DNA from: Stackebrandtia albiflava | GTDB taxonomy: Bacteria; Actinomycetota; Actinomycetes; Mycobacteriales; Micromonosporaceae | Direction of reading: 5' to 3' | DNA: 64,000 nucleotides | Assembly (NCBI RefSeq): GCF_007994225.1 | Contig: NZ_VLLL01000006.1 | Location: 1,178,001-1,242,000, forward strand | Shown: piece after piece, positions 43,090 through 56,264 of the stretch | Layout of the letters: the number at the start of each line of letters is the position of its first letter | Position numbering within the stretch: the stretch's first letter is position 1 | The notes under the pieces: generated by a model | Database searches by the model: none | Seen by the model: the letters and a program-made list of their open reading frames with translations, nothing else | Told to the model about the DNA's origin: nothing | Translations under genes and position numbers: made by a program

Positions 43090-44376
43090 TCAGCCGAGCC
43101 GGGCCGGCGGCCGGATCCGGCGGCGGTCGCCCGGCGCCGGCAGGTGGAGCCGTCGTCCCGGCGCACCGGCACGGCCGAGGTCCCTGCGGTCGAACTCCAC
43201 CGGCAAGGCGGTGAGGCCCCGCAGTACGAAGTTCTCCCGGTACGTGACCGGACCCGCCAGCCGCCCGCCCATGCGCGCCAGCGCGGTGAAGGCGATCCTG
43301 CCCTCCATCCTGGCCAGCGCGGCACCGACGCAGAAGTGCGGCCCGTAACCGAAACCCAGTGTCGGGCGGGCGGCTCGCCGGATGTCGAGCCGGTGCGGTT
43401 CCGGGACGCGCCTCGGATCGTGGTTGGCGGCGGCGATCATCACCGTCACCGGTTCCCCCGCCGGTGCGATCAGGTCACCGACGACGGTGTCACGCTGCGG
43501 AACCCGGAACGCGACCTGCGCGGGACCGTCGAAACGCAACAACTCCTCGACGGCGTTGCCGACGACGTCGGGTCGTTCGGTCAGCAGCCGCAACTGGCCG
43601 GGGTGCCGCAACAACGCGAGGTAGCCGTTGCCGATCAGGTTGGCGACGGTCTCGTGACCGGCGCTCATGATCAACGTGCACAGGCCGGGGAGCCTCGCCA
43701 CCGGCAGCTCCGGGTCGGCGGCCAGCGCCGATATGAGGTCGTCGGCGGGTCGTCGCCGCCGGAACCTCGCGAGTTCCCGGAAGTACGCGAACGCGGACTC
43801 CCGGGCGTCGTCGCGCGCGTCGCGTTGCGTGGGCGTCAACAGGACGTCGGGGTCCAGGCCGCGTGCCAGCGCCTCGGTCCAGCCGCGCAGCATCGCGTGG
43901 TCACCCTCGGGCAGGCCGAGCAGTTCACCGATCACGGCCAGCGGCAACCTGAACGCGAACTCCGACATGAGTTCCACCCTGCCGTGCAGCGGCGCCAGCA
44001 GATCGGTGACGTGATGGCGTACCCGCGCCTCCAGTCTGGCGACCACGCGGGGTGTGAACGCGCCGGTCACGACACGGCGAAGCCGGTCGTGCTGCGGCGG
44101 ATTCATGAACAGGAACGACAGCGCGGGCGTGTGCCTGACGAGGCGGCGCACGTCGGTGGTCAACTGCCGCATCCCACCGGTGTGCACGTGCGGGTCGCGA
44201 AGCAGCGCCGCCGACTCCTCGTAACCCACGGTGTACAGCCATCCGCCCGGAGCCCGGCCGACCGGCCCCTTCTCGTGCAGCCGCCGGTAATGCGGGTAGG
44301 GGTCGCGGACGAACCCCGGATCGAACGGGTCGAACGGCAGGCTCTCCCGGTACCCCGGCTCGCAGGTGACGGTCAT
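43090..44376 (-). CDS. Cytochrome P450
   Basis: 428 residues, soluble bacterial P450. I-helix LIMSAGHETVANLI with the (A/G)-G-x-(D/E)-T proton-relay motif, ExxR in VEELLR, and heme-binding FGYGPHFCVGAALARME with the Cys ligand (about residue 355). Hydroxylation or oxidative coupling of a small molecule, probably with a ferredoxin encoded elsewhere. It begins four bases inside the end of the SDR gene (ATGA), so the two are coupled. A basic C-terminal extension of about 30 residues follows the usual end. The neighbours suggest a tailoring function in a biosynthetic locus, unproven. Confidence 0.93.
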   Translation of the reverse strand: MTVTCEPGYRESLPFDPFDPGFVRDPYPHYRRLHEKGPVGRAPGGWLYTVGYEESAALLRDPHVHTGGMRQLTTDVRRLVRHTPALSFLFMNPPQHDRLRRVVTGAFTPRVVARLEARVRHHVTDLLAPLHGRVELMSEFAFRLPLAVIGELLGLPEGDHAMLRGWTEALARGLDPDVLLTPTQRDARDDARESAFAYFRELARFRRRRPADDLISALAADPELPVARLPGLCTLIMSAGHETVANLIGNGYLALLRHPGQLRLLTERPDVVGNAVEELLRFDGPAQVAFRVPQRDTVVGDLIAPAGEPVTVMIAAANHDPRRVPEPHRLDIRRAARPTLGFGYGPHFCVGAALARMEGRIAFTALARMGGRLAGPVTYRENFVLRGLTALPVEFDRRDLGRAGAPGRRLHLPAPGDRRRIRPPARLG

Positions 44377-45422
44377 GCCGGGGTCTCCGCGGGCCGGCGG
44401 CGGTGTGACCGCAGGGCGTAGTCGACGTCCTTCCGCAGGAACCGGCGCAGTGCCCCGGCGTCCGGTGCGGCGGGCGTGCCGGGGACGGTGCCCAGCGAGG
44501 TGGGGAACGGCGTGTCACTCAACGGGAGCGCGCCGGCGAACATGTTGCCCAGCCCCCGCCGGGTGCGGGCGTCCAGCGAGTCCCACCCCGGGTAGTCCCG
44601 CGCGTCGGTGCCGAACGGGTCGAGGAACCGCGGCGTGGTGAACCGGCCGCCGGAGGCGGTGACGGAGGCGCCGATCTCGGCGACGACCTCCGCCGCGGTC
44701 AGTGCGGCCGGTCCGGCGGTCGCCCAGTACTCGGTCGGGACGCGTTCTCCCGCCGCCGCCGCCGACACCAACCCCGTCAACGCCGCCGCCAGGACGTCTC
44801 GCGGGATCATGTCGACCCGGTGATCGGGCCGCAGGAACACCGCGGGGAGGTCGCCGGTGGCGATCATCCGCAGTACGAGGTGCGCGTTCTGGGTGGCGGG
44901 CATGTCACCTTCGACGGTGTCGGCCATGACCGCCGAGGGACGCACCACACAGTACGGTCGCCCGCACCGGCGGACGACCTCCTCGGCGGCGGCCTTGGAC
45001 GCCAGGTAGACCGACGGTCGCGCGTCACCGGCGGGGACCGCCGGTTCCCGCGCGGCGGCGGCCTCCCGGTCTCGGACGTAGGCCGACGACACGTACACCA
45101 GGGGACACCCGGCGGCCTCGGCCAGCGCCGTCAGCTCGGCGGTGCCGCCGACGTTGACCGCCGTCAACTCCGGCTCCGGTGCCGTGTAGCGGACGTCGCC
45201 GGCGGCGTGCAGGACGACGTCGGCGCGTGCGGCGAGCCGGTCGCGGACGGCCTCGGTCAGGCCGAGCCCGGTGACGGACAGGTCGATGGGGATCTGTTCG
45301 CAGTCGGCGTCGAGGACTCGCCTGCCGCGCAGCGCGATCACCTCGAACCGCGTGGCCAGCAGCCGGTACAGGGCCGATCCGACGACACCGGACAAGCCGG
45401 TGACCACAATGGTGGGACGCAT
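44373..45422 (-). CDS. NAD-binding SDR/thioester reductase-like oxidoreductase
   Basis: 349 residues, extended SDR (NAD_binding_4/male-sterility-type). TIVVTGLSGVVGSALYRLLA is the nucleotide motif at the start. VVLHAAGDVRY, LVYVSSAYVRD and YLASKAAAEE with the catalytic Tyr-x3-Lys (about residues 169-173, Y-L-A-S-K) follow. Such proteins reduce thioesters or acyl-CoA to aldehydes/alcohols, or act as epimerases. Its place immediately before a P450 suggests modification of a fatty acyl or polyketide intermediate. ATG 45422 is chosen because upstream residues lack SDR similarity. Confidence 0.85.
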   Translation of the reverse strand: MRPTIVVTGLSGVVGSALYRLLATRFEVIALRGRRVLDADCEQIPIDLSVTGLGLTEAVRDRLAARADVVLHAAGDVRYTAPEPELTAVNVGGTAELTALAEAAGCPLVYVSSAYVRDREAAAAREPAVPAGDARPSVYLASKAAAEEVVRRCGRPYCVVRPSAVMADTVEGDMPATQNAHLVLRMIATGDLPAVFLRPDHRVDMIPRDVLAAALTGLVSAAAAGERVPTEYWATAGPAALTAAEVVAEIGASVTASGGRFTTPRFLDPFGTDARDYPGWDSLDARTRRGLGNMFAGALPLSDTPFPTSLGTVPGTPAAPDAGALRRFLRKDVDYALRSHRRRPAETPA

Positions 45423-45458
45423 TCGGTGGATCCTCGTGTTCTTCGCGGACGGGCGGGG

Positions 45459-45502
45459 CCGGGCGGCCCCTCCCCGGTGCGACCCGGGGCGGGGCGGCCC
45501 GG
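45459..45502 (-). terminator. Large hairpin between EF-hand and SDR genes
   Basis: CCGGGCGGCCCCTCCCCGG (45459-45477) pairs with CCGGGGCGGGGCGGCCCGG (45484-45502), about 17 of 19 pairs, six-base loop. It lies directly after the EF-hand gene in its direction of transcription and would insulate the SDR-P450 pair. Confidence 0.7.
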
Positions 45503-45508
45503 AGCGGA

Positions 45509-46066
45509 TCACGCCGCGACGGACTCCCAGGCGCGCCCGAAGAGGAAGTTGCCGGGGGCGTCGGGGTCGGTTCCGGTGTAGTACTGGGAGATCGCCTCAC
45601 GCAGCTCGTCGGTGGTGATGTGGCCGTCGCGGTCGGTGTCGAGCAGCCGGAAGCTCTCCTCGGCCTCGTCCCGGCGGACGCCGAACGCGTCGCCGGAGCC
45701 GATGAACTCCTCGCGTGAGATCCGGTCGTCGCCGTCGGTGTCGATCAACCGGACGCTGGCCTCCGCCATGGCCCGGAAACCGTCCTCCAGCTTCGCCGGG
45801 TTGGCGATGGCGGCCCGCATGCCCCGGATGTACTCCTCGGCGGTGATCCGACCGTCGGCGTCGGTGTCGCACTCGGAGGAGACGGCCTCCCAGAACCGGA
45901 TCAGGCCGTCACGGTACGCGCGGGCCTGCGGAGCGTCGGCGGGGACGCCGAACCTGGCGGGAAGCCGCTCGGCGAGCCGGTCGATGTCGCTGCGTTCCAC
46001 GGCGCCGTTGCGGTCGGCGTCCAGGTGCGAGAAGCAGACGGCGAACTTGCGATCGAGCAGGTCCAT
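45509..46066 (-). CDS. Calerythrin-like EF-hand protein
   Basis: 185 residues with four EF-hand loops: LDADRNGAVERSD (about 15-27), DTDADGRITAEE (about 67-78), DTDGDDRISREE (about 113-124) and DTDRDGHITTDE (about 144-155). This four-loop layout is that of the actinobacterial calcium-binding proteins calerythrin and CabC. Each loop keeps Asp at 1 and 3, Gly or Asp at 6, and the acidic residue at 12. Cytosolic Ca2+ buffer or sensor; in streptomycetes related proteins affect spore germination and aerial growth. It sits next to a SapB-type locus, where calcium-linked development would make sense, but linkage is only suggestive. Confidence 0.92.
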   Translation of the reverse strand: MDLLDRKFAVCFSHLDADRNGAVERSDIDRLAERLPARFGVPADAPQARAYRDGLIRFWEAVSSECDTDADGRITAEEYIRGMRAAIANPAKLEDGFRAMAEASVRLIDTDGDDRISREEFIGSGDAFGVRRDEAEESFRLLDTDRDGHITTDELREAISQYYTGTDPDAPGNFLFGRAWESVAA

Positions 46067-46324
46067 GATGATTACCCCCGTGTGTCAGGATGTGGTTACA
46101 CGGCAACTATGCCCCAATTCGTCCGGATTCTGCGGAGACGCGCGGGAAATCCTCACGGGAACCGCGACCGTGCCGATGTCCGATCGAGGACGCGGCAAGG
46201 CAGCCGTGAGGACCGGGTGCGCCACAGTCAGACATCGCCGTGCGCACGGAGTCCGTGACGGTACGACAGTGCCCCGTCCTCGGACGGACCCGTGCGGGAT
46301 GTCCGAGACGTAAGGGGTAACGAC

Positions 46325-47050
46325 ATGGCCGACCTCGCCTGTGACGGCGTGCCGCACGCGCGCCGCGTGGTCCTACACGGCCACCCGGTGTTCGTCGCCG
46401 GGCTCGACTGGCTCCTGCGGCACGACGACGCGGTGTCGGTCACCGCCACCAGCACCACCACGGCGGAACTGGCCGCGCTACTGGCCACGCACCGCCCCGA
46501 CGCGGTCGTCGCCGACTACGACCGCCCCGGCGGCCCCGCGCTGGACATGTTGCGTACCTGCCGGAACCGCCCCGCCGGGGTCCGGATCCTGCTGATGTCG
46601 GCGCACGCCGATCCCGGCGTCCTCATGACCGCCATCCGGCACGGCGCGGACGGGTACCTCCTCAAGAACGCCGAACCGGCGGAGATCCTGTCGGCGGTCC
46701 GTTCCACCGCGTGCGGCTCCACGGTGTTCTGCTCCGGCGCGATGGCGGTCATCTCGGCCGGCCTGCTCGCGGCGGCGCGGCCGGTCGTGTTCCCGCTGCT
46801 CACCGAACGGGAACACGAGGTCCTGGAACTACTCGCCGTCGGTCTCGACAACCGCGACATCGCGCGCAGGCTGCGGGTGGCCGCCAAGACCGTCCGCAAC
46901 CACGTGTCCAACATCCTCGGCAAGCTCCAGGTCGCCGACCGGGCGCAGGCGATCGTGCGGGCACACCAGCAGGGCATCGGTGTACCCGCCCGCGACGAGC
47001 TCAGTCCTCCCCGGATGTGGCCGGTCGCACATCCAAACCGGGCAGCATGA
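46325..47050 (+). CDS. NarL/LuxR-type response regulator with atypical receiver
   Basis: 241 residues. The receiver (about 12-130) is degenerate: where typical proteins have LADDHP, this has VVLHGHPVFVAGLDWLL, so the acidic metal-binding pair is lost, although the phospho-acceptor-like Asp in VVADYDRPGG and the YLLKNA Lys remain. The DNA-binding LuxR domain (about 170-230) is normal: LTEREHEVLELLAVGLDNRDIARRL, AAKTVRNHVSNILGKL. Regulators of SapB-type (ram/amf) loci are likewise atypical orphans, so this is a candidate activator of the adjacent lanthipeptide operon. ATG 46325 follows AAGGGG. Its last 50 bases overlap the convergent MFS gene. Confidence 0.85.
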   Translation: MADLACDGVPHARRVVLHGHPVFVAGLDWLLRHDDAVSVTATSTTTAELAALLATHRPDAVVADYDRPGGPALDMLRTCRNRPAGVRILLMSAHADPGVLMTAIRHGADGYLLKNAEPAEILSAVRSTACGSTVFCSGAMAVISAGLLAAARPVVFPLLTEREHEVLELLAVGLDNRDIARRLRVAAKTVRNHVSNILGKLQVADRAQAIVRAHQQGIGVPARDELSPPRMWPVAHPNRAA

Positions 47051-48236
47051 GCGCGCACAACGCCACGACGCCGAAACCCACCGCCAGGATCCACTGCACG
47101 ACCGTCGGGGCGTACGCCGCCAGCAGGAAGCCGGCCAGCAGCGGCGCCAGCGGTTGCAGCGCGCTGCCGACGAACGCCGAGGAACTGGACGCCCTGCCCA
47201 GCACGTCACCCGGCACCAGCAGCAGCGTCGCCGCCGCCAGGGCCGCCCGCACCACCGGACCGAGCAGCATCACCACCGCCAAGGTCGCCGCGAACAGGAG
47301 TTCACTGCCCGAGACCGCCGCGGCGGCCAGGCAACCGCCCCGCACCAACGCGGTGGCGACCAGCAGCGCCCGCAGGCCGATCCGGCGTTGCAGGTACGGC
47401 GAGATCAGCGAACCGATGAGACCGGCGCCGGCGGCGGCGCTCATCGCGACACCGAGGACGACGCTCTCGTCGGCCTTGCCGATGATCAACGTGTACATCA
47501 ACGCCGACACGGCCACGTTCGTCACCGTCGAGTACACCGTCCTGGCGCGGAGGAACCTGTTGCGCCACAGTTCCCTCCAGCCCTCACCCACGTCGGGCAG
47601 CAACCGGCGCACGCTGGGCCGCCTCGACGGACGCAGCGGTGTGCGCAGCCGCCCGACGAACCACATCGAGAACAGGTACGACAGCGAGTCGACGGCGAAC
47701 GGCACGACCCGGCCGGCCGCGTACAGCACACCGCCCACCGAGGGACCGATCACCGAGACCGCGAAGCCGCGTGCCTGGGTGAGGCTGACCGCCTCCGGGA
47801 TCTGGTCGCGCGGCACGATCTGGCGCACCGCCTGGCTGTGCGAGGCGTTGAACACCACCATCAGGGCTCCACTGACGACGGTCAGCACGAACAGCATCCA
47901 CACCGAGGCGGCACCCAGCAGCAGACAGACCGTGACGGCGCCGAACAGCACCGCCCGGATCCCGTCGCACCACAGCATCACCGCCCGCCGGTCGCACATG
48001 TCGGCCAGGTAGCCGCCGGGCAACTGGGCCAGCCACATCGCGACGAACCCGACCGATCCCAGCAGGCCGGCCACCACCTCCGACCCGGTCAACGCCACCG
48101 CCAACAGCGGCACCGCCAGGGTCGTGAGCGACCCGCCGAAGTCCGACGCCGCCTGGCCCAGCCACAGCGACCGGAAGTCCCGGTTGCCGCCCAGCGTCGC
48201 CAGCCGCGAACCGGTCCGCGCCGACGTCGTCGTCAT
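47001..48236 (-). CDS. MFS exporter coupled to the lanthipeptide synthetase
   Basis: 411 residues, 12 predicted helices, MFS_3 (enterobactin-exporter/tetracycline-efflux-like). Typical signatures: RDFRSLWLGQAASDFGGSLTTLAVPLLA, GYLADMCDRRAVML (A-motif-like loop between helices 2 and 3) and ALVRGGCLAAAAV. Its ATG overlaps the lanKC stop by four bases (ATGA), so it belongs to the lanA-lanKC operon. It may export the modified peptide or provide immunity; class III loci usually use ABC exporters, so an MFS is less common. Its 3' end overlaps the luxR-type gene on the other strand. Confidence 0.88.
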   Translation of the reverse strand: MTTTSARTGSRLATLGGNRDFRSLWLGQAASDFGGSLTTLAVPLLAVALTGSEVVAGLLGSVGFVAMWLAQLPGGYLADMCDRRAVMLWCDGIRAVLFGAVTVCLLLGAASVWMLFVLTVVSGALMVVFNASHSQAVRQIVPRDQIPEAVSLTQARGFAVSVIGPSVGGVLYAAGRVVPFAVDSLSYLFSMWFVGRLRTPLRPSRRPSVRRLLPDVGEGWRELWRNRFLRARTVYSTVTNVAVSALMYTLIIGKADESVVLGVAMSAAAGAGLIGSLISPYLQRRIGLRALLVATALVRGGCLAAAAVSGSELLFAATLAVVMLLGPVVRAALAAATLLLVPGDVLGRASSSSAFVGSALQPLAPLLAGFLLAAYAPTVVQWILAVGFGVVALCALMLPGLDVRPATSGED

Positions 48237-50998
48237 GACACGTCCCCCGATCCGGGAAGCAGGTCGTCGAGGACGAGGTTGAACCCGGTCCGGGTGCCGG
48301 GGCCGGTCTTGAGCAGCCGGTCGAGGAACAGGCCGACACCGGCGGATCCGGTGGCGAAGTCGGCGGACTCCCGCAGCCCCTGCTCACCGGGGAAGACCAC
48401 GCCCTCGGGTGCGTCGACGCGGAACAGCAGCACGCCCTCGGCGGTGCGCCACGCCTCGGCCAGGACGTCGGGGCGGCCGGTCAGCTCCGCGACGTCGATC
48501 AACACGTCGCCCATGCCCGCCAGTCCGTGGAACAGTTGCGGCATCACCGCGTACTTGCGGGACACGTCGGGCAGCAGCCGGTCGATCCACCCGTCCAGGA
48601 CTCGGTCCTCCGGGGACACCGCCGCGTACCGGGCCACCGCCGCCAGGACGCCGGCGGTACCGGCGTCCCAGTAGCTGCGGACCGTCGGCACGCCGTCGGG
48701 GTCGGCGTCGGCGCGGAACGCGGTCATGAAGTCGTTGTGCCGCACCGCCTGCGCCAACTCGAAGTCCAGCGCCGCCCGTCCCAGGTCGAGGACGTCGGCG
48801 CGGCCGGTCGCGAGGTGGTGGTACAGCAGGAAGGACGCCACACCGCTGCCACCGTGGCCGTAGCCCACCGGCAGGTGCGGTTCGCCGTCCGGTCCGACGG
48901 TGGACCAGTGGGCACCACGGTCGTCGATCACCGCCCGGTCGGCGAGGTGCGCGGCGATGCCGTCCGCCGTCTCCAGGAACTCCGGGTCCGTGGTGGCCCG
49001 CCACAGCCGCAACGCCGCCATGCCGATCCCGGCCGCGCCGTGCAGGACACCGTGTCCCTCCCGCGCCAACGGGTGGTCGGCTGCCCGGCGCAGCAACCGC
49101 CCCGCGTACTCGGTGTACCCCAGTTCCGCGAGCACCCAGGCGATCCCCGCCTGACCGAAGTAGAGCCCCGGTGGGCAGGTGCGGTCGTCGATCTCGGGCC
49201 GGACCAGCCACGACAGGAACCTGCCGGGAACCTCACCGGTGACCCGGTGCAACGCGAGCAGGCCGCCCGCCGCGCCGTGCGCCACATTGAACGGATTGGT
49301 CTCGAACACGCCGACGTCGCCGGGGAACAACCGGTCGGTGCGTTCGGGCGTCGCCGTGGCGCGCAGGTAGTCGACGACACCGGACACCGCCTCGGCGGTG
49401 TCGCGGCGGACCCGTTCCGCCCGTTCACCGACCATCACCTCGTGGGCGGGCCTCGACAGCGGGATCACCGCCGGCCACGCCGTCACCGCGCCGACCGGGA
49501 GTTCCGCGAGCCGCTTCCCCACCACACCGGCGTCGGGATCGACCGGGGTGGTGTGGTCGGTCAGTTCGGCGACCAGGGAACGCAACTCCGCCGGCAACCC
49601 CAGGTCGGCCGACAACGAGTCCAGGAACCGCCCGATCGCGTCCGGCCGGTAACCGAGGAAGCCGTTGGCCAGCACGATCGCGCCGAACATCATGGCGCCC
49701 ACCGAGTAGTAGTCGTCGGCGGGTGCCGCCACGCCGCTGCGGATGAACCGGGGGCTGGACACCCCCTTGGTGTACATCTGGAGCGGCGGGTCGACGCCCT
49801 TCTCGACCGCGGCCTCCAGGTCGATGATGACGAGCCGCCCGGTGTCCTCGTCGACGAGCAGGTTCGTCCAGGACAGGTCGCCCAGCACGACGTCGCGGCG
49901 GTGGGCCTCGCCGATGGCGGCGACCAGTTCACCGAACAGGTCGCGCATCCGCCCCCAGTACCCGGCCATCCGCTCGGGCGTCAACTCCAGTGTGTACACC
50001 GGATTGTCGCTGATGGACAGTGTGCTCATCTGTGGTCCGGTGACGGCCTCCTCCGCCAGGAACGAGTGCTCCCACTCACGGAACAACGCGACCGGCCGGA
50101 CGAACCGGCCCGAGTCGGCCAGCGCCGTCAACAACCGGTGCTCCTTGGCGAGGATGTCCACATAGTCCTGATTCCCGGTCGCGGCGTACGAGCCGATGTG
50201 CGGTCGCACCTCCTTCAGGATCACCGGCCGGCCGGTGTGCAGGTCGGTCGCCCGGTACACGCCGCCGCGGTTGGAGAACTGCAGGGCCTCGGTCACCTCG
50301 AACCGGCCGCCCAACGGCTCGTCGGTGTCGTCGGCGGCCTCGTCGTCGTGGGCGGGCAACCCGAAGGGATCGACGTCTATCCACTCGGGAGCCGTCCAGT
50401 AGGGCGCCCGGACGTCGGTCAGCAGAGTCCCGTCGGGCGCGGTGATCACCATGTCGACCGCGCCGTCGTCACGGACCCTCGGCTTGCCGACGAAACCGCC
50501 GTAGCGGTAGAACACCGAACGGGAGTCGGGCACCCGGCGGTCGGAGAGGATGTACGGTCCCTCGAACCCGGCCAGCGCCTCCCGCAGACCGGACGCCACG
50601 CGGTGGAACACCGTCTCGTCCCGGGGATAGACGGTGATGAACTTGCCACTGGAGCCGCGCGGCCACAGTTTGCCGCCCGACATCATCACCGACTTGGGAT
50701 CGATGAGGAACTTGAAGTGGACGCCCGCGTCCCGCAGCACCGGCAGCGCCGCGCGCAGCACGGCGACACTCTCCTCGGCCCGCGTCGAGACGTGCAGCTT
50801 CCATCCCTGCGCGGTCATCTTCGGGCCGTCCGGCCAGTCGGCCACGAACCACAGGCCCTGCCGCCGCAGCGGTCTTCCCGGCGGCATGAGTTCCCGGTAG
50901 ACCAGGATGTGGTCCGGTTCCGGGGTGTAGCGGTTCAACGGCTCGAACCAGCGGGGGTGCTGCTGGCAGTAGATGTAGAACGTCTCCCAGGCGTACAT
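48233..50998 (-). CDS. lanKC: Class III lanthipeptide synthetase (LanKC)
   Basis: 921 residues in three domains. The N-terminal lyase-like part (about 1-205) removes the phosphate; it starts MYAWETFYIYCQQHPRWFEP. A Ser/Thr kinase (about 215-480) follows: FSNRGGVYRATD, ILKEVRP with the Lys, DLSWTNLLVDE with catalytic Asp/Asn and VIIDLEAA as metal motif. A LanC-like cyclase (about 530-921) lacks the zinc cysteines: SYWDAGTAG and PQLFHGLAG stand where zinc enzymes have WCYG and CHG. It phosphorylates and eliminates Ser/Thr of LanA and forms lanthionine/labionin. ATG 50998 follows GGAAAGGG. The precursor gene lies 121 bases upstream. Confidence 0.95.
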   Translation of the reverse strand: MYAWETFYIYCQQHPRWFEPLNRYTPEPDHILVYRELMPPGRPLRRQGLWFVADWPDGPKMTAQGWKLHVSTRAEESVAVLRAALPVLRDAGVHFKFLIDPKSVMMSGGKLWPRGSSGKFITVYPRDETVFHRVASGLREALAGFEGPYILSDRRVPDSRSVFYRYGGFVGKPRVRDDGAVDMVITAPDGTLLTDVRAPYWTAPEWIDVDPFGLPAHDDEAADDTDEPLGGRFEVTEALQFSNRGGVYRATDLHTGRPVILKEVRPHIGSYAATGNQDYVDILAKEHRLLTALADSGRFVRPVALFREWEHSFLAEEAVTGPQMSTLSISDNPVYTLELTPERMAGYWGRMRDLFGELVAAIGEAHRRDVVLGDLSWTNLLVDEDTGRLVIIDLEAAVEKGVDPPLQMYTKGVSSPRFIRSGVAAPADDYYSVGAMMFGAIVLANGFLGYRPDAIGRFLDSLSADLGLPAELRSLVAELTDHTTPVDPDAGVVGKRLAELPVGAVTAWPAVIPLSRPAHEVMVGERAERVRRDTAEAVSGVVDYLRATATPERTDRLFPGDVGVFETNPFNVAHGAAGGLLALHRVTGEVPGRFLSWLVRPEIDDRTCPPGLYFGQAGIAWVLAELGYTEYAGRLLRRAADHPLAREGHGVLHGAAGIGMAALRLWRATTDPEFLETADGIAAHLADRAVIDDRGAHWSTVGPDGEPHLPVGYGHGGSGVASFLLYHHLATGRADVLDLGRAALDFELAQAVRHNDFMTAFRADADPDGVPTVRSYWDAGTAGVLAAVARYAAVSPEDRVLDGWIDRLLPDVSRKYAVMPQLFHGLAGMGDVLIDVAELTGRPDVLAEAWRTAEGVLLFRVDAPEGVVFPGEQGLRESADFATGSAGVGLFLDRLLKTGPGTRTGFNLVLDDLLPGSGDVS

Positions 50999-51085
50999 GA
51001 CGGCCCTTTCCGCGGTGTCCGTCGGCGGCCGTCGACCGGTCGCCGTGCTGTAGTGGTCGGAACCGTCCACATGCCGCAGGGGAGA

Positions 51086-51111
51086 CGCCGGCCCCCGGAT
51101 GGAGGCCGGCG
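51086..51111 (-). terminator. Attenuator hairpin between lanA and lanKC
   Basis: CGCCGGCC (51086-51093) pairs with GGCCGGCG (51104-51111) around a ten-base loop, just downstream of the lanA stop. Partial termination here would make much more precursor than synthetase mRNA, the usual arrangement of lanthipeptide operons. Confidence 0.6.
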
Positions 51112-51118
51112 CACACGG

Positions 51119-51229
51119 CTACTCGATCTCGCTGTTGCAGCTGTGGGAGTCGCAGGAGCCGGAGCTGATGGCGACGACGCTGGGCGTGGTCGCCGAGGCC
51201 AGCTTCTGGAGCTTCAGGATCTTCGACAT
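51119..51229 (-). CDS. lanA: Class III lanthipeptide precursor peptide (LanA)
   Basis: 36 residues, too short for most gene callers. The leader starts MSKILKLQKLASATTPSVV; ILKLQ (residues 4-8) matches the hydrophobic class III leader motif (I/L-L-x-L-Q) bound by LanKC. The presumed core contains Ser22, Ser23, Ser25, Cys26, Ser28, Ser30, Cys31 and Ser33, then Glu-Ile-Glu at the end. It holds a tandem S-x-S-C-(D/N) unit (23-27 and 28-32), and SxxSxxC (25-31) fits a labionin. AGGAGG (51235-51240) precedes ATG 51229 by five bases. The synthetase gene follows on the same strand. Cleavage site, ring pattern and activity are unknown. Confidence 0.85.
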   Translation of the reverse strand: MSKILKLQKLASATTPSVVAISSGSCDSHSCNSEIE

Positions 51230-51406
51230 GATGTCCTCCTCTCGGTGCTCGTGGGCGGACGGTCCGGTGTGACCGGACCGGGTCGGTAAACCGACGTTGC
51301 GGGCGGTTCCGGAACCGATACTGGCCGTCCCGGTGTCCCGGGCGCATGGGCCGGTGAACCCGGCGGCCCGGGTTTCCCGCCCGGGCCGCAGGATGCGCGG
51401 GCCTCA

Positions 51407-51412: not shown

Positions 51413-51418
51413 GTGGAG

Positions 51419-51793
51419 GTGATCGACTTCGCCAACGGATCGTTGTTCAAGCTGTCCGCCGCCAACCCGAAGGACCTGGCGCCCGCCGTCGCGCCACTGC
51501 TGATCGAGCACGAGCGCATCGTCGCGTGCTTCAAGTCGGTGCGGGACTTCGTGGTGTTCACCGACAAGCGGCTCATCGCCTGCAACGTGCAGGGGATGAC
51601 CGGCAGGAAACGCGACTACTCGTCACTGCCGTACCGCAAGGTGCAGGCGTTCTCCGTGGAGACCGCCGGGCACTTCGACATGGACGCCGAACTGGAGCTG
51701 TACTTCAGCGGCCTGGGCAAGGTCAGGTTCGAGTTCAAGGGCGCGGTCGACATCCGCCCGCTGGCCCAACTCATCGCCCACTACGCACTCTGA
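51419..51793 (+). CDS. Bacterial PH-domain protein
   Basis: 124 residues consisting of one bPH_1-type pleckstrin-homology-like domain (PF08000). Marker segments: IEHERIVACFKSVRDFVVFTDKRLIACNVQGMTGRK and YSSLPYRKVQAFSVETAGHFDMDAELELY. The family forms ring-like oligomers in crystals and has no catalytic residue; function unknown. GTG 51419 is favoured over the in-frame GTG 51413 because TACGAT lies six bases before it. It is divergent from lanA, with about 190 bases between the starts, where the lan promoter must also lie. Confidence 0.88.
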   Translation: MIDFANGSLFKLSAANPKDLAPAVAPLLIEHERIVACFKSVRDFVVFTDKRLIACNVQGMTGRKRDYSSLPYRKVQAFSVETAGHFDMDAELELYFSGLGKVRFEFKGAVDIRPLAQLIAHYAL

Positions 51794-51900: not shown

Positions 51901-52728
51901 ATGTGGAAATCGCTGCTCGGTTGGGTGTCGAGGCGCAAACCGGGCTTCTGGATCGCCATGGGTGTCGGGGTCTTCGTCTTCATCGTGGTGGCCAACACTC
52001 CACCCACCGAGGATTCCCCGGCTCCGGGCTTCTGGGACGGAGCCGCCGCGGCACTGTTGTTCGGTGGAACGACGATGCTCATCGTGGTGGGGTGCCGCAG
52101 AGTCACGTCCTTCGTGCGGGGACGAGGGGGCGATGTCGACGGTGGCGAACCGAAGGCGATCGTCGCGGGAGAGAAGCCGCCCGACAGCCCGGCTGAGTCG
52201 ATGCCCAAGCCGGTATCGGCCGCGCGGGTTCCCGGTGTTCTCGAGGAGGACGACGATGACGACCGGCTCCACCCGTGGGTGTCGGAGCCGGCGGAGAGGC
52301 TTCTGGCTCACGGACACGGTCAAGACGCGGTGCTGGCCGCCGCCCGCTCCATAAACGCTCACGACCAGGAGAAGTTGCGCAGATTCGACAAATCGGACCG
52401 CAATCTGTTGGAGGAGGCGTTCGCGGAGACCGAACCGAAAGCGGGTTCGCCGCGACTTCGATTCCCCGGTGATCCGCAAACGGTCAGTTGGAGAAATCGG
52501 ATGACCGGAGTCAGGAGCCTGGTGGCGGCCAGCTTCGCGGGATTGCGCAACGTATCGGCTCACGATCACGATCTCGACTGGGACCAGGAGACCGCCGGTC
52601 AGTACCTGGCCATGTTGAGTGTGCTCGCCCGTTGGATCGAGGAGTGCGAGGTGCACAGGGTCACGCTGGTGCGTGAGTCCAGCGACCAGGCGTCCATCCT
52701 CCCGGCGACCAAACGACCAGGTTCATAG
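51901..52728 (+). CDS. Membrane-anchored HEPN/Ymh-like (TIGR02391) protein
   Basis: 275 residues. Two N-terminal hydrophobic helices (about 14-33 and 45-63) anchor it. A charged linker of about 55 residues leads to a C-terminal TIGR02391/Ymh-like helical domain (about 120-262) that starts LHPWVSEPAERLLAHGHGQDAVLAAARSI. It ends with the conserved RNVSAHDHD: an R-x4-H motif like that of HEPN ribonucleases. Ymh-domain proteins are found in abortive-infection and phage-defence loci. The ATG at 51901 follows GGAGCGAGGC. Lower GC3 than neighbours suggests recent transfer. A VapBC pair lies just downstream on the opposite strand, and a repeat begins at its stop codon. Confidence 0.72.
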   Translation: MWKSLLGWVSRRKPGFWIAMGVGVFVFIVVANTPPTEDSPAPGFWDGAAAALLFGGTTMLIVVGCRRVTSFVRGRGGDVDGGEPKAIVAGEKPPDSPAESMPKPVSAARVPGVLEEDDDDDRLHPWVSEPAERLLAHGHGQDAVLAAARSINAHDQEKLRRFDKSDRNLLEEAFAETEPKAGSPRLRFPGDPQTVSWRNRMTGVRSLVAASFAGLRNVSAHDHDLDWDQETAGQYLAMLSVLARWIEECEVHRVTLVRESSDQASILPATKRPGS

Positions 52729-52765
52729 CGACCAGACGTCCACGGAGTGAGCGACCAGACGTCCA
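52681..52765. repeat. Three 16-bp repeats at the 3' end of the HEPN-like gene
   Basis: AGCGACCAGGCGTCCA (52681-52696), AGCGACCAGACGTCCA (52727-52742) and AGCGACCAGACGTCCA (52750-52765). The last two are identical and 23 bases apart; a weaker relative lies near 52704. The second copy overlaps the stop codon. They could be leftover duplications from sequence slippage or protein-binding sites. Confidence 0.6.
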
Positions 52766-52908
52766 AGCCCTGGTAGGGGCCTGGCGAAATGACATTCCGG
52801 TCGCTCACCCCATATGGTGGCCTTCCCGGAAATCCGTGGAGTGGCGACCGGCCGGGAGACATACCGTTACCGGGCCGATCCGGCCTTCGGATACACCGCA
52901 GACACGGG

Positions 52909-53328
52909 TCACACGGTTCCCGGCGGTACCACCCATTCGGTCTTCTGGCCGGTGACCGCGGCGATGGTGTCGAAGTCCTTGTCGTAGTGCAGCAGGATGA
53001 GTCCCTCCTGCATCGCCACCACGGAGAGCAGTAGGTCGACCATTGACGCTGCTCGATGCCGACCGTGCTCGGCCAGCCCGCGTCGGATTCGGAGCGCCGC
53101 CTCCCAGGGATCGTCTCCCATCGACGCCCATGGGAACGCGGGAAGGAGGACCTCCCGTATCCGGTCGTAGTCCTGAAGGTTCTTGGCCGAGTACAACAGT
53201 TCGTATTCCGTTGCCGCGCATACCGATACGAGGCCACGGGTGATCAATGGTTCGAGCCGTTCACGGACCGGTTCCAGATGTAGCCGTGCCAACGCGCTCT
53301 TGTCGGCCAGGTACCGGGTCACGCCCAC
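52909..53328 (-). CDS. vapC: PIN-domain toxin (VapC)
   Basis: 139 residues, PIN domain. Acidic active-site residues in order: Asp in YLADKSALA (about residue 9), Glu in ATEYELLYSA (about 43), Asp in SMVDLLLSVVA (about 97) and Asp in HYDKDFDTIA (about 115). VapC toxins cleave tRNA or rRNA when free of antitoxin. Its start overlaps the end of vapB by ten bases, the standard order (antitoxin first). Function in stabilising the region or stopping growth is inferred. The target RNA cannot be predicted. Confidence 0.9.
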   Translation of the reverse strand: MGVTRYLADKSALARLHLEPVRERLEPLITRGLVSVCAATEYELLYSAKNLQDYDRIREVLLPAFPWASMGDDPWEAALRIRRGLAEHGRHRAASMVDLLLSVVAMQEGLILLHYDKDFDTIAAVTGQKTEWVVPPGTV

Positions 53329-54581: not shown

Positions 54582-54923
54582 TCAAGCATTCGCGTACGGG
54601 TCGTCCGCCACGCCGTCGCCGTCCATGTCGGTGACGGTGGTGTCGATGACGCCGTCGTAGTCCACATCGGCTTCCCAGGTGTCGGTGACGCCGTCCCCGT
54701 TGGCGTCGTACGCCTGGACGTCGGCGGTGCCGTCGCCGTCGGTGTCCACGTACATCTCCTCGACGACGCCGTCCCCGTTGCCGTCGATAAACTCCGCGTC
54801 GCCGTCACCGTCGGAGTCCAGGTCCACGACCCAGTTGTCCTCCATGCCGTCGCCGTCGGTGTCGGAACCGTAGACGGTGTCGAGGTCGCCGTCACCGTCG
54901 AAGTCCTCGGTCCATTCGCTCAT
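54582..54923 (-). CDS. Asp-rich calcium-binding repeat protein
   Basis: 113 residues made almost entirely of about eight repeats of 13 residues with the pattern D-x-D-G-D-G-x-x-D: for example DTDGDGMED, DANGDGVTD, DMDGDGVAD. Each is an EF-hand-like/thrombospondin-3-like calcium loop. There is no signal peptide or membrane helix, so it is either cytosolic or exported by another route. The charge is extremely negative. ATG 54923 has AGAGGA seven bases upstream. Possible calcium store, adhesin module or structural protein; no catalytic motif. The repetition also makes it prone to alignment and assembly errors. Confidence 0.75.
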   Translation of the reverse strand: MSEWTEDFDGDGDLDTVYGSDTDGDGMEDNWVVDLDSDGDGDAEFIDGNGDGVVEEMYVDTDGDGTADVQAYDANGDGVTDTWEADVDYDGVIDTTVTDMDGDGVADDPYANA

Positions 54924-55099
54924 TGTGGATTCCTCTTCCCGGAGGTGAAAGTCTGTCTCGTTCTGACGGATACGACGATACGAGGTCGTCCACGCCGCTT
55001 GAATCACGGATTCGTGCCACCGTCCACCGGTCCACCAGCGGTCACCGACACGCCACGTCGGGTGCGTGCCACCGGCCCGGCCCCGCACGTGGTGTCGGT

Positions 55100-55105
55100 T
55101 AGCGT
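55100..55105 (+). promoter_or_regulatory. -10 box of leaderless metB gene
   Basis: TAGCGT ends seven bases before the ATG at 55113, and there is no Shine-Dalgarno. The same hexamer precedes the GTG at 21837. Confidence 0.4.
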
Positions 55106-55112
55106 AGTGGGC

Positions 55113-56264
55113 ATGACAGCTGATTCCCAGGGCTTCTCGACCCGGGCCATCCACGCCGGGCAGCCCGCCGACCCCACCACGGGTGCCGTGGTCACCCCGA
55201 TCTACGCGACGTCCACCTACCTCCAGGACGGCGTGGGACGGATGCGGGGCGGTTACGAGTACTCGCGCACCAAGAACCCGACCCGTCGGGCGTTGGAGGA
55301 ATGCCTTGCCGCACTTGAGGAGGGGCGTCACGGGTTCGCGTTCGCCTCCGGCCTCGCGGCCGAGGACACGCTGTTGCGCGCCGTGTGCGCCCCCGGCGAC
55401 CACGTCGTCATCCCCGACGACGCCTACGGCGGCACCTTCCGGTTGTTCGACAAGGTCGCGTCCCGGTGGGGACTGGACTACACCCCGGCGAAGATCTCCG
55501 ACGTCGCGGCGGTGCGCGCCGCCGTCACGCCCCGCACCAGGATCGTCTGGGTCGAGACCCCCACCAACCCTCTGCTGGGAATCGCCGACATCGCGGCGCT
55601 GGCGCAGTTGGCGCACGACGCCGGCGCACTCCTGGTGGTGGACAACACCTTCGCCTCCCCGTACCTCCAGCAGCCGTTGGTGCTGGGCGCCGACGTCGTG
55701 GTCCACTCCACCACCAAGTACCTCGGCGGTCACTCCGATGTGGTCGGTGGTGCCCTCGTCGTCGACGACGACTCGCTCGCCGATGAACTCGCGTTCCACT
55801 CCAACTCCATGGGTGCCATCAGCGGCCCCTTCGACGCCTGGCTGACCCTGCGCGGCGCCAAGACCCTCGCCGTCCGCATGGAACGCCACTGCGACAACGC
55901 CGAACGCATCGTCGAATGGCTCGGCGGCCGTGACGAGATCTCACACATCCTCTACCCGGGACTGGAGACCCACTCCGGCCACGAGGTCGCCGCCAAGCAG
56001 ATGCGCCGGTTCGGCGGCATGGTCAGCTTCCGGATGCGCGCCGGCGAGGAGGCGGCGGTCGCGGTGTGCGACCGCGCCGAACTGTTCACACTCGGCGAAT
56101 CCCTGGGCGGCGTGGAATCGCTCATCGAACACCCCGGCCGGATGACCCACGCCTCCGCGGCCGGTTCGCCGCTGGAGGTCCCCGGAGACCTCGTCAGGCT
56201 GTCGGTCGGCATCGAGGACGTCGAGGACCTGATCGCCGACCTCGCCCGGGCCTTCGGCGGGTGA
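55113..56264 (+). CDS. metB: Cystathionine gamma-synthase / gamma-lyase
   Basis: 383 residues, PLP fold type I, Cys/Met metabolism family. Visible motifs: YEYSRTKNPTRRALEECLAALE (about residues 47-68), FASGLAAEDTLL, and the PLP-lysine motif VVVHSTTKYLGGHSDVVGG (Lys about 204). It converts O-acyl-homoserine plus cysteine to cystathionine, or splits cystathionine; sequence alone does not decide. Partner of CBS (37895). ATG 55113 is chosen as the family start; the frame upstream lacks any similarity. Translation appears leaderless. Stop at 56264 is four bases before the next gene. Confidence 0.9.
   Translation: MTADSQGFSTRAIHAGQPADPTTGAVVTPIYATSTYLQDGVGRMRGGYEYSRTKNPTRRALEECLAALEEGRHGFAFASGLAAEDTLLRAVCAPGDHVVIPDDAYGGTFRLFDKVASRWGLDYTPAKISDVAAVRAAVTPRTRIVWVETPTNPLLGIADIAALAQLAHDAGALLVVDNTFASPYLQQPLVLGADVVVHSTTKYLGGHSDVVGGALVVDDDSLADELAFHSNSMGAISGPFDAWLTLRGAKTLAVRMERHCDNAERIVEWLGGRDEISHILYPGLETHSGHEVAAKQMRRFGGMVSFRMRAGEEAAVAVCDRAELFTLGESLGGVESLIEHPGRMTHASAAGSPLEVPGDLVRLSVGIEDVEDLIADLARAFGG

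Follow-up and report, generated by a model that had tools for sequence, protein, structure and literature searches.

A conserved yet rare cassette, almost certainly of the class III lanthipeptide type, in Stackebrandtia albiflava

The window (the whole 64,000-nucleotide stretch of DNA analysed) carries a compact cassette in the order lanA–lanKC–MFS, with all three genes on the minus strand and a regulator gene convergent to them. The features of the locus are listed here with their evidence in brackets.

51119–51229, minus strand: lanA, a 36-residue class III lanthipeptide precursor (NF038160, alignment, leave-one-out HMM)
51235–51240, minus strand: AGGAGG ribosome-binding site, 5 nt upstream of the lanA ATG (sequence)
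51206–51217, minus strand: leader motif L-x-L-Q, residues 5–8 (both L and the Q identical in all six precursors)
51137–51166, minus strand: core from S22 to C31, S-x-x-S-C-[DE]-S-x-S-C (kept in six of six precursors)
48233–50998, minus strand: lanKC, 921 residues, with RamC_N, kinase-like and LanC-like cyclase domains (profile models, alignment)
47001–48236, minus strand: MFS protein, likely exporter (relative 3′ of lanKC in five of five close cassettes)
46292–47050, plus strand: LuxR/NarL-type response regulator with a pseudo-receiver, convergent (in four of five close cassettes)
51413–51793, plus strand: PH-domain gene (PF08000), divergent neighbour outside the cluster (Pfam match)

The minus-strand frame at 51119–51229 reads MSKILKLQKLASATTPSVVAISSGSCDSHSCNSEIE. 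As the preliminary description had claimed, it encodes 36 residues behind a perfect AGGAGG, with the leader sequence ILKLQ and with two cysteines and six serines in its core; these lie within residues 22–33. The gene had been placed between the PH-domain and LanKC genes, which is correct in position, but the PH-domain gene is on the plus strand and diverges from it; that gene has no relative at E 1e-8 among frames of at least 80 aa in four other close loci. The cluster interval of 48233–51229 leaves out both the exporter and the convergent regulator, and the claim of a complete small cluster comes close, except that no protease is found among the cassette genes and the conserved regulator had been overlooked. 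The lanKC start is assigned to ATG 50998 from the sequence and an alignment of relatives; the open-reading-frame list begins the gene at GTG 51070, and the reference in most LanKC searches began at 51001, which adds one codon. The MFS start codon overlaps the lanKC stop codon (ATGA, 48236). Frames 52599–53237 and 54582–55889 matched no Pfam family.

Several observations show that LanA is not a chance reading frame. Its product scores 34 bits against the NCBIfam precursor model NF038160 (lanthi_III_c; curated cut-off 27), and this is the sole match to the model in the 5.55-Mb genome. Furthermore, an HMM built by leave-one-out from the five other precursors found LanA in the six-frame window at E 5.5e-15, where the next-best segment reached E 2.4. 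Among 1117 window frames of 25–80 aa, with each ATG or GTG start counted apart, a single one has L-x-L-Q within its first 16 residues, and the same frame has the core motif.

LanA matched NF038160 only (E 0.01). Neither the SapB/AmfS model NF033212 nor the III_b precursor model gave a match in the genome, and no control genome matched them either. The precursors described by NF038160 resemble LanA in length and leader, but the model also admits other core types, such as SCTSSRDNCC in genome G042 (32.4 bits) and SSSYSFICC in G081 (38.4 bits); G186, with the core SCSSSQNQCC, falls under the cut-off at 24.3 bits. Among the close relatives introduced below, both copies from G014 and the precursor from G090 reach the cut-off of 27, and those from G004 (23.0 bits) and G066 (17.7 bits) miss it. 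The earlier view that the product is not predictable from known members is overstated, since the precursor already passes an NCBI subfamily model. The model name was not found in the papers searched, so no characterised product could be linked to it. Likewise, neither core strings (CDSHSC, CESQSC, ISSGSC) nor leader strings (KILKLQ, KILNLQ, KILDLQ, VLKLQEL) were found in the running text of the papers searched, as distinct from their figures and supplements.

The synthetase is the only LanKC match in the genome. It scores 717 bits against NF038151 (cut-off 575) and 564 bits against the class IV LanL model, below that model's cut-off of 650. PF25816 (RamC_N) and PF05147 (LANC_like) are over their cut-offs, and the kinase model PF00069 falls just short (30.7 against 31.7 bits). 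The motifs VILKE, GDLSWTN, IDLE and QGWK supply kinase and lyase signatures, and the protein is similar to solved LanKCs over the lyase–kinase and cyclase parts. With both the precursor and LanKC models passed and the cassette conserved, the proposed identification as a class III cluster holds, and we regard it as almost certain.

A profile of six precursors detected the precursor in five of 354 genomes of the bacterial family, the window's own included. At E 1e-100, ten of these 354 genomes had a LanKC match; the ones at 50% identity or above are those five again, and the remaining five lie at 35–38%. All five genomes share the lanA–lanKC–MFS order. Identity to the window is 60% for LanKC and 63% for MFS in G004, 59% and 65% in G066 (Candidatus Stackebrandtia excrementipullorum), 56% and 57% in G014, and 49% and 46% in G090. 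G014 has two lanA copies. A tandem lanA pair with near-identical cores lies at L014 7871–8136 on the minus strand; its members have G or D between the last two serines and differ in their tails.

In wider samples, the precursor profile matched two genomes among 397 sampled from the order, and these two belong to the window's genus; NF038160 matched two of 396 sampled from the phylum, with only the window's own over the cut-off. Such searches score only a subset of the candidates in each genome and may overlook members: one NF038160 search returned nothing for G066, which the profile did find. From so few matches, the lanthipeptide family looks rare. The cassette is genuine and conserved yet rare, and it belongs to a known kind of system.

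It might instead be silent or decayed, with nothing made. No promoter or terminator consensus was found between 50950 and 51500, a result of small weight where the organism is a G+C-rich actinobacterium. Decay is countered by the intact reading frames, a cassette conserved across LanKC identities from 60 to 49%, and synonymous codon changes at seven of 11 invariant precursor residues (start codon excluded). We consider it very unlikely.

Alignment of the six precursors shows M1, K3, L5, L7, Q8, A20, S22, S25, C26, S28, S30 and C31 to be invariant, and the conserved core unit is S-x-x-S-C-[DE]-S-x-S-C. The tandem S-x-S-C-(D/N) of the preliminary description is present in the window but peculiar to this strain: the other five precursors have one S-x-S-C each. 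As residue 23 is W, I or V in these five, the tandem is not a family feature and was rejected as a signature. The acidic Glu-Ile-Glu tail is similarly present in the window and absent or different elsewhere; after C31 the other precursors have nothing (two), one Asn (one) or a different tail (two).

The class III motif is given as S-(X)2-S-(X)2-5-C in PMC8960859, and the labionin motif definition in PMC11251773, where T694 is described as a two-Cys type III peptide, bars Cys from the spacers. Which definition is used decides the fate of the claim that the core is unlike S-x-x-S-x(3-5)-C: with free spacers S22-SG-S25-CDSHS-C31 fits the pattern and the claim fails, and with Cys barred it stands. 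The loose S-x2-S-x(2-5)-C pattern occurs twice in each of the six close precursors, and a labionin motif lacking internal Cys occurs in none of them. Among six diverged precursors, G046 has three Cys-free motifs, G081 has one, and G123, G326, G186 and G042 have none; a missing Cys-free motif is therefore not special to the close clade, as four of six diverged precursors also go without.

When each Cys is paired with the closest preceding Ser that is three or more residues away, all six precursors give Ser28–Cys31 and the five relatives also give Ser22–Cys26. For Cys26 of the window, Ser23 lies nearer and Ser22 is the conserved partner; in this strain Ser23 could stand in for Ser22. Because this spacing is conserved, the likeliest pattern is probably two neighbouring lanthionine rings, Ser22–Cys26 and Ser28–Cys31, a proposal drawn from Ser/Cys spacing alone. 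Ser25 and Ser30 would then stay as dehydroalanine (Dha) or unmodified. The diverged precursor of G123, whose LanKC is 38% identical to the window's, keeps S22, S25, C26, S30 and C31 and has Ala at the position of Ser28, so the Ser28–Cys31 ring is not general beyond the close clade. Taken whole, the interpretation of the product as a class III lanthipeptide bearing two adjacent lanthionine rings is somewhat favoured.

A product with labionin is possible, if doubtful. It would be formed from Ser25/Ser28/Cys31 or Ser22/Ser25/Cys31, leaving Cys26 for a second thioether or a disulfide. Both options (S-x2-S-x2-C and S-x2-S-x5-C) fit loosely in all six close precursors, labionin is common with LanKC enzymes, and paenithopeptins are reported in PMC8960859 to hold labionin inside a larger disulfide-bridged ring. 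Both options also enclose Cys26, which the definition in PMC11251773 does not permit in a spacer, and the Ala in G123 replaces a serine that labionin formation might use. The LanKC residue discussed next, a His at the ThurKC position of the proposed general-base Asp, likewise argues against labionin.

The zinc ligands Cys284, Cys330 and His331 of NisC correspond to Ser726, Phe770 and Asp771 of ThurKC (PMC10604976). In the window LanKC these positions are Asp778, Phe823 and His824 by sequence alignment to ThurKC, a type of comparison in which the cyclase similarities appear unclearly according to PMC10604976. Relative to the Cys/Cys/His ligands, both cysteines are replaced and the histidine is kept, which sets the enzyme apart from class IV LanL. 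The Asp/Phe/His combination is invariant in the five close LanKCs. In ThurKC, mutating Phe770 or Asp771 to alanine retained dehydration and abolished cyclisation, and the Asp was proposed as general base (PMC10604976). Since these alanine variants lose cyclisation, the change from Asp to His lies at a working position.

Among more distant synthetases, G046 has Glu, Tyr and Asp at the zinc site and a precursor with three clean labionin motifs. The residues are Ser, Ala and Thr in G123, and Glu, Ala and Phe in both G326 and G186; the precursors of these three also lack a clean motif, which speaks against a simple rule linking the site to the labionin motif.

A further alternative is a differently crosslinked peptide, for example through His29 as in noursin. 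According to PMC10206099, one subgroup of LanKC enzymes links histidine to butyrine and yields a product that binds copper. This noursin-type LanKC-Hbt system shares with the window a LanKC and a short core with His and Cys, His29 sitting between both cysteines. The window core differs in having no Thr partner, and conserved Thr is absent from the family core. His29 is replaced by G, D or Q in three of the five other precursors, so that neither His nor Thr shows the conservation such a link calls for. We therefore judge this alternative exceedingly unlikely, and metal binding via His29 was rejected as the His is not conserved.

For the favoured two-ring product, a pathway can be proposed whose enzymatic steps are established for the family. 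The ribosome would make LanA, and LanKC would bind the L-x-L-Q leader. The kinase domain would phosphorylate core serines and the N-terminal lyase domain would convert them to dehydroalanine, to which the LanC-like domain, lacking the two Cys zinc ligands, would add Cys26 and Cys31. The leader may be trimmed by a peptidase encoded elsewhere, perhaps M1/AplP-like, AplP being what we take to be a member of the M1 peptidase superfamily. Three M1 peptidase matches were found in the genome and none to S9_N, presumably the FlaP type. Protease genes are missing from most characterised class III clusters (PMC8960859). The MFS protein would then export the product.

The regulator gene at 46292–47050 was found by all-against-all comparison of the five loci and encodes a receiver domain (PF00072) with a LuxR-type helix-turn-helix (PF00196). 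It probably starts at ATG 46325, and at their 3′ ends the regulator and MFS genes overlap by 50 nt. Equivalent positions in G066 (43% identity), G004 (41%) and G014 (40%) hold relatives; a search of the 16 kb surrounding the G090 cassette detected none (E 1e-3). All four regulators have other residues in place of the receiver's acidic pair (HG, NG, NG and TG; His-Gly in the window), and three other regulators from the same search, L011 at 15130, L013 and L015, keep it.

These four regulators match the definition of pseudo-receivers in PMC12632262. That review lists RamR as one of the atypical regulators whose dimerisation needs no phosphorylation, and it notes that JadR1 and RedZ bind end products of their own pathways. 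RamR lies beside ramCSAB and activates the SapB operon (PMC5650626). The conserved place and the lost acidic pair together suggest phosphorylation-independent control; by analogy with RamR and SapB, the convergent LuxR-type protein probably controls the operon in this manner.

A hairpin between lanA and lanKC was considered as a conserved attenuator and rejected: measured against 200 mononucleotide shuffles, it is not strong in the window (z −1.0) or G014 (z −1.2), and strong in G004, G066 and G090 (z −3.9, −3.2 and −5.5). Beyond the regulator, a P450 gene (43090–44376), a thioester-reductase-like SDR gene (44373–45512) and an EF-hand gene (45509–46066) are tightly packed on the minus strand, perhaps as an operon of their own. 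As candidate tailoring genes they were rejected: no relatives were found at E 1e-4 in 13–16 kb stretches of seven other LanKC loci, including four close cassettes, and stretches of this length would miss relatives encoded further away.

The window cluster shares a LanKC, a small precursor of the L-x-L-Q type and an adjacent regulator with the SapB/AmfS (ram/amf) systems. It differs in having an MFS protein in place of RamA/RamB, which are ABC transporters, and in its short, hydrophilic core. As a system it is ordinary; its core sequence and cyclase zinc-site residues are slightly unusual.

The wider significance lies in a pairing seen in this clade: the core has no clean labionin motif, and the cyclase is altered at a proposed catalytic position. 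PMC10604976 names the determinants of labionin formation by class III synthetases as an open question. Such pairing makes the lanthionine/labionin question testable with a single enzyme, its 36-aa substrate and point variants. A more speculative and rather doubtful reading is of a small class III clade that makes no labionin, in which cyclases with invariant Asp/Phe/His (Ser/Phe/Asp in ThurKC) close two tight lanthionine rings, S-x3-C and S-x2-C, separated by an acidic residue, and in which the pseudo-receiver regulator may sense the product. The S-x3-C and S-x2-C rings would resemble nisin rings A and B in size. Otherwise, the cassette represents one further unexplored peptide product from rare actinobacteria.

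Other precursors accompany the more distant synthetases. A second type from the same bacterial family, with the core SC[ST]SS-x(3)-CC, occurs at L015 8292 (minus strand), L016 7859 (plus) and L030 1266 (plus), adjoining LanKCs 35–37% identical to the window's. At L029 1025 (plus), a diverged precursor with the core FSSRSCVAISCHK keeps S-x-x-S-C-x(3)-S-C, and its LanKC neighbour is 38% identical.
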